Shown one piece after another: positions 41,664 through 44,983 of a DNA stretch of 64,000 nt (position 1 is its first letter; the number at the start of each line of letters is the position of its first letter). Position numbers and translations under genes: made by a program. The notes beneath the pieces are model-generated. The model had not been told where the DNA came from and made no database searches. It saw only the letters and a list, made by a program, of their open reading frames with translations. The stretch is taken from the NCBI RefSeq assembly GCF_008274585.1, contig NZ_VTRT01000001.1, forward strand, positions 1,054,001 through 1,118,000, given 5' to 3'. Source of the DNA: Pedobacter sp. BS3 (lineage in GTDB: Bacteria > Bacteroidota > Bacteroidia > Sphingobacteriales > Sphingobacteriaceae).

Positions 41664-41692
41664 TTTAGATATAAGATAATCTTATATCTAAA
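41664..41692. repeat. Perfect palindrome between nuoE and nuoF
   Basis: 14 bases (41664-41677), one central base, then the exact complement (41679-41692). It lies in a 183-base gap made of related TAAGATATGAGAT-like strings. It is of the same low-complexity style as 5325-5347 and 968-1049. Confidence 0.7.
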
Positions 41693-41820: not shown

Positions 41821-43188
41821 ATGGGCCGTAAACTATTAATAGAGCATATCAACGTTCCCGGAATCAATACCCTGGAAGTTTACCGGCAAAAAGGTGGTTA
41901 CCGTGCAGTAGAAAAAGCCTTGAAAACCATGTCGCCTGATGATGTGGTTGAAGAAGTGAAAAAATCGGGCTTACGCGGACGTGGTGGCGCCGGTTTTCCT
42001 ACCGGGATGAAGTGGAGCTTTTTGGCTAAGCCCGAAGGAGTTCCCCGTTACCTGGTGTGCAATGCCGATGAATCTGAGCCGGGAACATTCAAGGACAGGC
42101 ACCTGATGACCTATATTCCTCATGCTTTAATTGAAGGAATGATCATTTCGAGCTACGCATTAGGCGCTAACGTATCTTACATTTACGTGCGTGGCGAGAT
42201 GATGCCGCAAATACGCATTCTTGAAAAAGCCATTGCCGAAGCTAAAAATGCCGGTTTCCTGGGTAAAAATATCTTAGGCTCAGGTTACGATTTAGAATTA
42301 TATGTACAGCCCGGTGGCGGAGCATACATCTGCGGCGAGGAAACAGCACTGATAGAATCCCTTGAGGGAAAACGAGGAAATCCACGGATCAAGCCTCCTT
42401 TTCCAGCCATTGCCGGTTTATATAATTGTCCCACCGTTGTTAATAACGTAGAATCTATTGCAGCTACGGTACCCATTATTAACGATGGCGGCGAAGAATA
42501 CGCTAAAATAGGCGTTGGCCGTAGTACCGGAACTAAGTTAATTTCCGCTTCGGGAAATATTAATAAGCCCGGTGTTTACGAAATTGAATTAGGTGTTCCG
42601 GTAGAAGAATTTATTTATTCTGATGAATACTGTGGCGGAATTGCTAACGGAAAACGGTTAAAGGCGGTTGTAGCCGGAGGTTCATCTGTGCCTATTTTGC
42701 CAGCCAACCTGGTTATGAAAACCGCTAATGGTGAGAATCGCCTGATGACTTATGAATCGCTTGCTGACGGTGGATTCGCTACCGGCACCATGATGGGGTC
42801 GGGCGGATTTATTGTATTTGATGAAGACCAGTGTATTGTACGCAATACCTGGAACTTTTCGCGGTTTTACCATCACGAAAGCTGCGGACAGTGTTCTCCA
42901 TGTCGTGAAGGTACGGGCTGGATGGAAAAAGTGCTGCACCGGCTGGAATATGGTCACGGTAAATTAAGCGATATTGATTTGCTGGTTGATGTATCCAAAA
43001 AAATAGAAGGTAACACCATTTGTCCGTTAGGGGACGCGGCGGCATGGCCGGTAGCCAGTGCCATACGGCATTTCAGGGATGAATTTGAGTGGCATGTAAA
43101 AGAGCCAATGAAAAGCCAAAGTACCAATTATGGTTTGGCCAATTATGCAAAGCCGATTGAAAAAGCTGTGGCGGCTGAGGAGAAATAA
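41821..43188 (+). CDS. nuoF: NADH-quinone oxidoreductase subunit F
   Basis: NuoF is the NADH-oxidising flavoprotein. It shows the NADH-binding [13 protein letters not shown], the FMN region ([17 protein letters not shown]), [19 protein letters not shown], and 4Fe-4S ligands [14 protein letters not shown] with a fourth Cys in NTICPLGD. The 455 residues are normal. An ORF6N element separates it from nuoG. Confidence 0.97.
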
Positions 43189-43195
43189 TTACAAT

Positions 43196-43976
43196 CTTAA
43201 GGTCGCAATTTGCGACCTTAGAATTACAAAACTTGTTAAATGAACTCGTTAAGGTCACATTTTGTGAGAATTGTCAAATTTGTGAAAAGAAATTTCTAAG
43301 ATCACATTTTGTGATCTTAGAAATTTGAATAAAGACTTTGAAAATGGGACTTGGTAGCTAATTGAGGCCGTTTAATATAAAATAATAATAAAATTCTAAG
43401 ATCACATTTTGTGACCTTAGGATAACAACTTAATAAATGTCAAAACAAGAGTTATCCATAATTCCTAATGAGATAATCATTAATAAAATATATCTTTTTA
43501 GAGATATTAAAGTGATGTTGGATACAGATTTGGCAGAACTTTTTGGAGTAGAAACGAGGTTGTTGAAGCAATAAGTTAGAAGAAACATAGAGCGTTTTCC
43601 AGAACATTTTATGTTTGAACTAACAAAAGAAGAAAACGAAGTTCTAAGGTCGCAAAATGTGACCTTAGAACAAGGGAAATATTCAAAATACCTGCCTTTT
43701 GCATTTAGCGAACATGGTATTTTGCAATTGTCGAACGTTTTAAAAAGTAAACGTGCGGTAGAGGTAAGTATAAAAATAATAGATGTGTTTGTTGAGCTTA
43801 GAACAATGGCTTTAAGTAATGCAGACCTTCGCATCGAAATAGAAAAGGTTAAAAAGAAAGTAGATAATCAAGATAAAAATATAGAGGTAATATTTCGTTA
43901 TTTTGATGAATTATTACAACAACAGGAAAAGCCGAGAAAACAGATAGGATATAAAATTCCTGATAAGAAGAAATAA
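43196..43976. mobile_element. Palindrome-flanked ORF6N element inserted in the nuo operon
   Basis: Copies of a TAAG(G/A)TC(G/A)CA-3-TG(C/T)GA(C/T)CTTA palindrome lie at 43198-43220, 43249-43268 (decayed), 43290-43326 (perfect 17-bp arms) and 43396-43420, all before the ORF6N frame. A fifth copy lies inside that frame at 43644-43668. The whole 788-base stretch splits nuoF from nuoG, which are adjacent in other complex I operons. Mobility is inferred; no target duplication was identified. Confidence 0.7.
43437..43976 (+). pseudogene. ORF6N-domain protein with an in-frame stop
   Basis: From ATG 43437 the frame reads MSKQELSIIPNEIIINKIYL...VMLDTDLAELFGVETRLLKQ, hits TAA at 43572, and continues in the same frame with VRRNIERFPEHFMFELTKEE...YLPFAFSEHGILQLSNVL to 43976. 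This is an ORF6N (KilA-N-like, phage-derived DNA-binding) domain with a C-terminal coiled segment (LRIEIEKVKKKVDNQDKNIEVIFRYFDELL). The stop replaces an expected Gln or Ala codon, a single-base change. A restart at ATG 43611 would lack the DNA-binding half. The ORF6N domain is usually a DNA binder; its natural target is unknown. Confidence 0.85.
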
Positions 43977-43978
43977 AA

Positions 43979-44983
43979 ATGGCTGAAACAGTTAAAGTGA
44001 CCATAGATGGAATAACAGTAGAGGTAGCTCCCGGCACTACCATTTTAAATGCTGCAAGGCAGATAGGAGGGGAGATTGTTCCGCCGGCGATGTGCTATTA
44101 CTCTAAATTACAGGGAAGTGGAGGTAAATGCCGTACCTGTTTAGTTAAGGTAAGCAAGGGTTCAGAAAAAGACCCGCGTCCGATGCCAAAGCTGGTAGCA
44201 TCATGCCGTACAGGTGTAATGGACGGTATGGAAGTGCAGAATATCACTTCGCCGGAAGTTATTGAAGCACGTAAAGGTGTGGTAGAGATGCTGCTCATCA
44301 ATCACCCGTTGGATTGCCCGATTTGCGACCAGGCCGGTGAGTGTCATTTGCAAGACCTGGCTTACGAACACGGAGAAGAAGCCACCCGCTATGAATTTGA
44401 GCGTCGTACGTTTGAAAAACATACCTTGGGCGATAAAATCCAGCTGCACATGACGCGTTGTATTTTATGTTACCGTTGTGTTTTCGTAGCCGACCAGATT
44501 ACCAATAAGCGTATTCATGGCGTGTTAGGCCGTGGCGATGCCGCCGAAATATCAACATATATTGAAAAGGCTATTGATAACGATTTTTCGGGCAACATGA
44601 TCGATGTTTGCCCGGTTGGCGCATTAACCGATAAAACGTTCCGGTTTAAAAACCGGGTGTGGTTTACCAAGCCGGTAGATGCACATCGCGATTGCCCGAC
44701 CTGCAGCGGTAAAGTAACCCTTTGGTATAAAGGTGAGGATGTAATTCGCGTTACCGCCCGGAAAGATGAATATGGTGAAGCAGAGGAATTTATCTGCAAT
44801 ACCTGCCGCTTTGATACCAAGAAAACCAGCGACTGGGTGATTGAAGGCCCTCGTCATATTTCCAGGCATTCGGTGATATCGTCTAACCATTATGAAACCA
44901 TGCATCCGCTGCCGGTTATACAACAAAAGCCGCAATTGCAGGAGTTTAATAAAGAACAATTTGAAAGAGCTACAAAACTGTAA
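43979..44983 (+). CDS. nuoG: NADH-quinone oxidoreductase subunit G, short form
   Basis: The 334-residue protein has the 2Fe-2S ferredoxin-like domain (CYYSKLQGSGGKCRTCLVKV, SCRTG), the His-Cys-type cluster site (HPLDCPICDQAGECHLQDLAYEHG), and the 4Fe-4S motifs RCILCYRCV and IDVCPVGAL. It ends at CPTCSGKV...CNTCRF, so the usual molybdopterin-oxidoreductase-like domain (about 400 residues or more) is absent. This short form appears normal for Bacteroidota rather than a truncation. The start follows the ORF6N stop by 2 bases. Confidence 0.94.
   Translation: MAETVKVTIDGITVEVAPGTTILNAARQIGGEIVPPAMCYYSKLQGSGGKCRTCLVKVSKGSEKDPRPMPKLVASCRTGVMDGMEVQNITSPEVIEARKGVVEMLLINHPLDCPICDQAGECHLQDLAYEHGEEATRYEFERRTFEKHTLGDKIQLHMTRCILCYRCVFVADQITNKRIHGVLGRGDAAEISTYIEKAIDNDFSGNMIDVCPVGALTDKTFRFKNRVWFTKPVDAHRDCPTCSGKVTLWYKGEDVIRVTARKDEYGEAEEFICNTCRFDTKKTSDWVIEGPRHISRHSVISSNHYETMHPLPVIQQKPQLQEFNKEQFERATKL

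Follow-up and report, generated by a model that had tools for sequence, protein, structure and literature searches.

Genes for ORF6N proteins carry, at one homologous place within their coding sequence, a two-fold symmetric palindrome whose bases change with residues of a predicted recognition helix of the protein encoded by the same gene. From sequence comparisons, we consider it probable (about 0.75) that this palindrome is the cognate DNA site, or operator, of that protein, and that it probably serves an autoregulation travelling with the gene. The starting point was an ORF6N gene in the window, as we call the whole stretch of 64,000 nt from Pedobacter sp. BS3 that was analysed; this copy is a broken member of the ORF6N family.

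The ORF6N copy between nuoF and nuoG

The ORF6N gene of the window (PF10543; 43437–43976, plus strand, with the ATG at 43437 and the final stop at 43974–43976) follows nuoF (41821–43188, plus strand) and precedes nuoG (43979–44983, plus strand). Both neighbours were taken from the ORF list, nuoF with the name given in the initial annotation, and tblastn with the nuoF protein recovered the same gene order in relatives. The ORF6N gene had been said to split nuoF from nuoG; it does sit between them, but neither gene is interrupted. Its frame scores 108.5 bits against the ORF6N profile (Pfam gathering cut-off, 27.8; 113.7 bits for the intact relative L007) and contains one stop, an in-frame TAA at 43572–43574, so that the frame is not intact, either because this copy is broken or through a sequence error. 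The stop lies within the codons of the putative recognition helix (43551–43586, plus strand; ETRLLKQ*VRRN), which were placed from an AlphaFold2 model of L007 (helix 41–50) together with mutual information, and which give this copy an R and a Q at alignment columns 35 and 39. Intact relatives are present at the same nuoF-nuoG place.

Four palindromes had been described upstream of the gene; three are intact, one of them with a mismatched pair, and the other is only a half. The first (TAAGGTCGCAATTTGCGACCTTA; 43198–43220) is perfect and, according to the helix code described below, of the K/E type, unlike the R/Q helix of this copy. The second (43250–43267; TAAGGTCACATTTTGTGA followed by GAATTG) has lost its right outer arm. 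The third (43290–43326) spans 37 nt, with perfect 17-nt arms around a centre of 3 nt, and its AGATCACA...TGTGATCT matches the R and Q of the helix, while the fourth (43397–43419), which ends 17 nt 5′ of the ATG and has one mismatched pair, matches them on one side, with its left arm. The in-frame palindrome reported to encode VLRSQNVTLE was confirmed (GTTCTAAGGTCGCAAAATGTGACCTTAGAAC; 43641–43671, 31 nt with its arms), with one G-T mismatch in the stem, and occupies a place homologous to that of palindromes in other ORF6N genes. The pattern said to be common to all these elements, TAAGRTCRCANNNTGYGAYCTTA, is found exactly at three upstream sites (43198–43220, 43297–43319 and 43397–43419) and at the internal site (43645–43667), but not in the second upstream element. 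The pattern had a mean of 0.01 matches, and never four, in 100 dinucleotide shuffles of the window and, with up to three mismatches allowed, the four sites are its sole places in the 4.8 Mb genome, versus two places for the control pattern read backward. The internal site of the window copy (AGGTCGC...GTGACC) departs from the helix code, with G-T at pair 4 and G.C at pair 7, which would suit a dead copy in which the constraint has lapsed.

The second ORF6N gene in this genome (L002; G000:C1:829304-829504) is a frame of 110 aa in which the loop is joined to the C-terminal tail, which looks like an internal deletion; it retains a palindrome, GGTATCACAAAATGTGATACC, that matches its own helix. Separately, the gap 5′ of nuoF holds a perfect AT-rich inverted repeat (TTTAGATATAAGAT / ATCTTATATCTAAA; 41664–41692), unlike the ORF6N palindrome.

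An ORF6N gene lies between nuoF and nuoG at 25 further loci, and 24 nuoG loci of related genomes (L088–L111; no nuoF was found at L108) gave no ORF6N match. In the nearest of the ORF6N-free loci, from the same genus, the gap between nuoF and nuoG is 45 nt. At least three diverged ORF6N subtypes occupy this one place in Pedobacter (L037, L039, L047 and L051 versus L007–L024), as if they were alleles replacing each other.

The in-gene palindrome across the ORF6N family

A genome search with one genome per species returned 318 ORF6N relatives, and the best 80 of the 318 loci were used. Nearly all of these 80 have a palindrome in the same codons, often perfect over 27–41 nt, with a sequence that varies by clade. 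When the best palindrome of each gene was scored, 66 of 82 ORF6N genes (the 80 loci plus the two of the window's genome) reached 10 or 11 of 11 pairs, versus 28 of 1640 synonymous reshuffles; among the other ORFs of the same 80 loci, 4 of 274 did so. Further Bacteroidota genomes and viral contigs were then added, five faecal phage records from a phage collection being left out of the analysis, and 206 of 221 HMM hits were kept after dropping fragments, extreme loop lengths and duplicates. In this larger set, 163 of the 206 genes show 8 or 9 of 9 pairs at the site, versus 25 of 760 control windows taken from these genes. Synonymous reshuffling, neighbouring ORFs and control windows rule out a chance palindrome or codon accident, and the two-fold symmetry goes beyond codon constraint in the family, with one mismatched pair in the window copy.

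Of 190 distinct segments, 180 have an internal palindrome of at least 7 of 9 pairs, and these 180 constitute the set used for the helix code; the best centre lies exactly 42 nt 3′ of the same codon in 157 of the 190. Three of the ten segments lacking an internal palindrome (L039, L047 and L051) are at the Pedobacter nuoF-nuoG place. The internal palindrome is thus a feature of the ORF6N family. It extends to plasmids: among ten plasmid-borne ORF6N genes with named hosts, five have an internal palindrome of at least 8 of 9 pairs (Segatella twice, Treponema, Bacteroides ovatus and Parabacteroides), and a Butyrivibrio plasmid gene has a flanking palindrome only. Two tiny plasmids of Segatella copri (L230 and L231; 4.1 and 2.95 kb) have just two listed genes each, one for a replication initiator and one of the ORF6N family that contains a palindrome. 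As a separate observation, the loop peptides of nine genes (L176, L159, L161, L188, L147, L180, L193, L203 and L170) suggest two in-frame tandem palindromes, perhaps of differing specificity; in L176, LRFQIGT is followed by LRSQIVT.

The symmetry is kept as DNA, and not as RNA or peptide. Pair ±4 is Watson-Crick in 160 of 165 class I segments (38% expected from the columns) and pair ±10 in 163 of them (50% expected), and at ±4 the pairs A.T, G.C and C.G all occur, that is, both bases change together. Mismatches within the gene in these 165 segments comprise 31 G-T, 47 A-C and 100 others, and those in the flanking palindromes 53 G-T, 56 A-C and 60 others; the corresponding G-T and A-C counts are 9 versus 11 in the RhuM genes and 11 versus 6, too few to tell, in the Bro-N genes, both described below. 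The palindrome centre stands in another frame in 14 segments, and 12 such genes have unrelated peptides there (e.g., VANCDHL and ITNCDNL). In the AlphaFold2 model of L007 (mean pLDDT 79), the residues encoded by the palindrome (around 70–80) correspond to the end of helix 65–73 and the start of a loop, where pLDDT falls below 50 at 76–83. Because the palindrome is read in different frames and its G-T mismatches are not above the A-C ones, it acts as DNA and not as mRNA.

Palindromes also flank many of the genes. A search with the core TCRCAANTTGYGA, at 11 of 13 letters, found a similar palindrome near 75 of 194 ORF6N genes (64 upstream and 11 downstream), with 70 of 83 upstream sites at 20–80 nt before the start codon. 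As these flanks were selected by their likeness to TCRCAANTTGYGA, no weight attaches to their shared core; when upstream palindromes were scanned for without selection, 65 of 193 genes had one, mostly with the TCRCAANTTGYGA core among the rows listed. The initial annotation had proposed to check whether flanking and internal palindromes covary, and they do so weakly. Within loci, agreement is clearly above random at ±10 to ±12 (e.g., 0.73 versus 0.45 at ±10, uncorrected for relatedness), and at ±4 it is 0.52 versus 0.46 for random pairing. Strict covariation was rejected, agreement being confined to the outer arms. The flanks also follow the code of their own protein weakly (E, 22 G.C versus 12 A.T; Q, 23 A.T versus 15 G.C; Fisher p 0.037).

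Coupling between helix residues and palindrome bases

Alignment columns 35, 36, 39 and 43 correspond to residues 42, 43, 46 and 50 of L007 and fall in its helix 41–50, which in the predicted model is the second helix of what we label as a helix-turn-helix (HTH; 30–37 and 41–50). Over the 180 segments, residue 39 goes with the base pair at ±4: Q with A.T in 70 of 76, E with G.C in 69 of 71, R with C.G in 16 of 20 and K with C.G in 7 of 7, which makes 23 of 27 for R and K together; at ±5, R goes with G.C in 16 of 20 and K with T.A in 7 of 7. Similarly, K at residue 35 accompanies G.C at ±7 in 115 of 117 segments, with R mixed, and at residue 43 R accompanies C.G at ±3 in 168 of 169 and N accompanies A.T in 5 of 6. 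L007 has the helix K-R..E (where residue 39 is E46), and its Q-type relative L008 the helix K-Q..Q. The best predictors of ±4 among 164 columns are 39 and 36, apart from column 69, whose tie to ±4 is trivial because the 3′ arm of the palindrome encodes residue 69; the code therefore rests on columns 35, 36, 39 and 43. In the outer arms (±10 to ±13), symmetry has no strong tie to any helix column, and template-switch correction between the arms is possible there.

A rule trained on cellular genes and applied to viral genes, held out by source and not by similarity, was right at ±4 in 31 of 32, versus 7 by majority guess. The gains were small at ±5 (29 of 32 versus 25) and ±3 (29 of 31 versus 26), and prediction of ±7 from residue 35 was poor (16 of 31 versus 11). 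For the ten plasmid genes, ±4 was predicted correctly in seven; in L237 the prediction misses at the palindrome that was scored, while a second palindrome fits the code, and no palindrome was found at the expected place in L235 and L236. Helix and palindrome also switch together among close relatives: in 62 non-overlapping close pairs that differ in the class of residue 39, ±4 differs in 56, and both members are as predicted in 51, versus a different ±4 in 7 of 70 close pairs with the same residue 39. Nine of the 62 are Pedobacter-type nuoF-nuoG orthologues, 2–6% apart elsewhere; six of them fit on both sides, and the three that do not are those with L012, L011 and L017. The exceptions to the code are L012 (E with A.T), L011 (half) and, with Q and G.C, L017 plus four Mucilaginibacter genes. 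Of the genes with the palindrome in another frame, 10 of 12 follow the code at ±4, both R genes (L184 and L157) being off. A partial Mantel test of helix against palindrome gave 0.42 (n = 180, p ≤ 0.001). Cognate recognition, with the ORF6N helix and the in-gene palindrome matched base by base, is thus strongly supported by sequence comparison for the family; the broken window copy, at its internal site, is an exception. The suggestion made at the outset that the protein may bind its own repeat is supported, in that helix residues predict bases of the in-gene palindrome almost deterministically in ORF6N and strongly in RhuM and Bro-N.

Of 27 RhuM genes (PF13310), 20 have 10 or 11 of 11 pairs, versus 15 of 270 reshuffles, and a larger set of 112 windows, which include spurious frames, yielded 69 parsed genes, 65 of them with at least 7 of 9 pairs. 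The palindrome core varies with the residue that precedes the helix histidine: all 22 genes with E have CGG...CCG, those with L or M mostly AAG...CTT (GAG...CTC in L286 and L342), those with K TTCCA or GTGCA, those with R TGCA and those with Y CGAAATTTTCG. The same core recurs at other positions and frames (L305, L359 and L424; L309 and L341). Partial Mantel tests of helix against palindrome (n = 65) gave 0.53 given the C-terminal part (p ≤ 0.0005) and 0.56 given the residues beside the helix (p ≤ 0.001); among pairs far apart elsewhere, palindromes differ by 6% where the helices are similar (38 pairs) and by 60% where they are different (722 pairs). Two RhuM genes of the window's genome, L299 (C1:55578) and L374 (C1:92953), have in-gene palindromes of differing types, TTTCCA with K and CGGAAATTCCG with E, respectively.

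All 36 genes of the WYFS subfamily of Bro-N (PF02498; L264 matches Bro-N) have at least 7 of 9 pairs, versus 3 of 35 control windows, with a partial Mantel value of 0.54 between helix and palindrome (n = 36, p ≤ 0.0005). Coupling of helix and palindrome is strongly indicated in RhuM and in this Bro-N subfamily too. Fourteen of 26 PF02498 genes lie outside the WYFS subfamily and were excluded from the set of 36; their best values in the scanned stretch were 5 to 8 of 9. Two genes outside the subfamily, L253 and L275, have palindromes (CTGTTCGGGATTCAACCCCGAACAG and CTGATGCCTATAATACAGGTATCAG; 10 and 9 of 11 pairs) in the loop after DPDEKL, that of L253 just outside the scanned stretch, and the in-gene palindrome may reach further into Bro-N. 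In DUF1016_N (PF17761; L426–L449, L455 and L038), which we take to be a nuclease family, 11 of 24 genes reach 10 or 11 of 11 pairs, versus 3 of 240 reshuffles; since L038 was picked for having shown a palindrome, the fair count is 10 of 23. The DUF1016_N palindromes lie shortly 3′ of a GFSxxN motif in the genes listed (e.g., AAAACTGCTACAGGCTGTAGCAGTTTT in L445).

A putative operator inside the gene of its own reader

We infer a mechanism in which the N-terminal domain would be an HTH followed by a disordered loop whose start is encoded by the palindrome itself. The second HTH helix would read bases in either half-site, with the protein binding as a dimer to the two-fold symmetric site some 200 nt into the gene and, in around one third of the genes, also to the copies mostly 20–80 nt 5′ of the start codon. 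The protein would thereby repress its own transcription, through a block to elongation in the gene and repression of the promoter upstream. Autoregulation is the simplest use because sites are located within the gene and immediately next to it, and the type that was counted is not in excess elsewhere. Being located within the coding sequence, the in-gene site would be inseparable from the gene when it moves into foreign operons such as nuoF-nuoG, and this place may keep control attached to the moving gene. Specificity would switch by paired changes of helix and palindrome, which would prevent cross-talk between paralogues. Against autoregulation, an elongation block at the nuoF-nuoG place would affect nuoG and the genes downstream of it as well. 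In PHROGs the ORF6N protein is annotated as anti-repressor, under transcription regulation, and phage antirepressors with ORF6N and Bro-N domains belong to the same protein families. A Dachshund/Ski, Mbp1 or MerR-like winged-helix fold was considered for the predicted domain, but its structural matches are weak, with a best Z of 6.6 (granulovirus Orf22; rmsd 3.4, 91 aligned), followed by 6.4 and 5.9 (Ski-like and Dachshund), 5.0 (RacA-DNA) and 4.8 (Mbp1), and Foldseek E values of 0.27 or worse.

Alternatively, the encoded protein might bind the palindrome for a use other than repression, which could be to keep out related incoming elements, to serve replication or partition, or to mark a target for homing or allele conversion. 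We regard this as unlikely. In its favour, many of the genes are carried by mobile elements, on viral contigs and plasmids and some beside integrases, ArdA or rep genes; the subtypes that share the Pedobacter nuoF-nuoG place, the in-gene palindromes of DUF1016_N genes, and flanks whose specificity often differs from that of the resident helix, as if from earlier alleles, speak for it as well. Conversely, three ORF6N proteins scanned (L007, L067 and L039) have no second Pfam domain and hence no known catalytic part, and each copy at the nuoF-nuoG place stands as a single gene within a housekeeping operon.

It is very improbable that the palindromes are themselves mobile units moved by the protein, as in a selfish hairpin element of the REP/RAYT kind. 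In REP/RAYT systems and Rickettsia palindromic elements, palindromes accompany a dedicated gene or occupy coding frames, and the palindromes in and around the ORF6N gene, the tandem in-frame duplications suggested by the peptides of nine genes including L176, and two solo palindromes like the other-frame site (L240 and L246) would agree with such an origin. However, the ORF6N palindromes are not dispersed. The 15-mer RTCRCAANTTGYGAY occurs in 48 of 74 genomes with ORF6N, at 96 sites versus 13 for the backward-read control, and in 28 of 173 genomes without ORF6N at the control level, with 31 sites versus 29. At least 42 of the sites, among the 75 of 127 that were listed, are within 1 kb of ORF6N; the ORF6N places used for this neighbourhood were part of the known places, which makes 42 of 75 a lower bound. 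Likewise, the long pattern forms a single cluster in its own genome, the internal site is at one homologous place, and the protein has an HTH, ORF6N being the sole Pfam domain of L007, L067 and L039, with no known transposase domain, Y1 included. A dispersed REP-like family is rejected for TCRC-type sites, the sole type counted genome-wide, and this explanation is largely refuted; the proposal in the initial annotation that the protein mobilises its repeat is left unsupported by the distribution of the 15-base form. A genome-wide regulon was also rejected, for the RTCRCAANTTGYGAY specificity only, as RTCRCAANTTGYGAY is not in excess in the 173 genomes without ORF6N.

Twelve symmetric palindromes with no listed ORF6N nearby were examined. 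Ten of them gave no ORF6N match; seven of the ten are in an ORF of more than 80 aa, and L243, L245 and L251 are outside such an ORF. The other two, AAGGTGGTCGCAATTTGCGACCACCTG (L240:1507) and AAGGTTATCACAATTTGTGATAACCTG (L246:1507), are solo palindromes whose surroundings yielded no ORF6N gene; they are similar to the in-gene site of the other-frame genes, of which L240 also matches nine residues, and look like solo remnants of it. Three weaker sites of the window's genome (L117–L119) gave no ORF6N match.

Descent alone is just as improbable an explanation of the association, even though helix and palindrome are only some 90 nt apart and would travel together, and a passage of PMC10111431 describes proteins of this network as domain-swapping. 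A given residue meets the same bases even where frame, position and peptide differ (10 of 12 other-frame ORF6N genes; L305, L359, L424, L309 and L341 in RhuM), the code learned from cells holds in viruses, the correlation remains after controlling for the residues beside the helix, and close pairs switch helix and palindrome together. Least probable of all is an mRNA hairpin for translational control or attenuation: a long inverted repeat would fold in the transcript, but we rejected it given G-T mismatches not clearly commoner than A-C ones (the small Bro-N counts apart) and a coupling to HTH residues for which it has no place.

The operator reading has partial counterparts in known systems. 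The lambda O initiator binds iterons inside gene O, with specificities that differ between lambdoid phages; that site is a replication origin with several iterons, whereas ORF6N genes usually have one palindrome, also when they stand alone in the chromosome. The operators lac O2 and gal OI are inside coding sequence, but in structural genes and not in the regulator's own gene, and they are not known to have a family-wide link with the domain that reads them. Another counterpart is Roi of phage HK022, a DNA-binding protein resembling Ant1/KilA that, as Clerget and Boccard are said to have reported in 1996, binds a site within its own gene; Roi is one case, whereas the ORF6N site is near-universal in the genes sampled. 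No palindrome of at least 8 of 9 pairs was found in the HK022 roi gene or its surroundings, so its site is not the same element, and roi was rejected as a homologous case. PMC3430580 cites Clerget and Boccard (1996) and has a passage on lytic growth. Among the matches listed for the literature on ORF6N, Bro-N, RhuM, antirepressors or Roi, none describes a cognate site inside the gene.

More tentatively, and with somewhat less than even odds, ORF6N, RhuM, Bro-N and perhaps the DUF1016 nucleases may be self-addressed proteins, with the reading helix and its target locked in one frame. Selection for pairs that do not cross-react, as in immunity between alleles competing for the same sites, would then drive a natural experiment in protein-DNA specificity, and an HTH code could be read from public genomes. 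The targets of most DNA-binding proteins of mobile elements are unknown; if this holds true, very many helix-site pairs would be readable from sequence alone and, with each gene carrying its own target, the HTH recognition code could be put to a direct test. The unexplained RhuM, ORF6N and Bro-N genes of operons, plasmids and prophages would likewise gain a function, and their loop sequences would be explained as dictated by the DNA palindrome.
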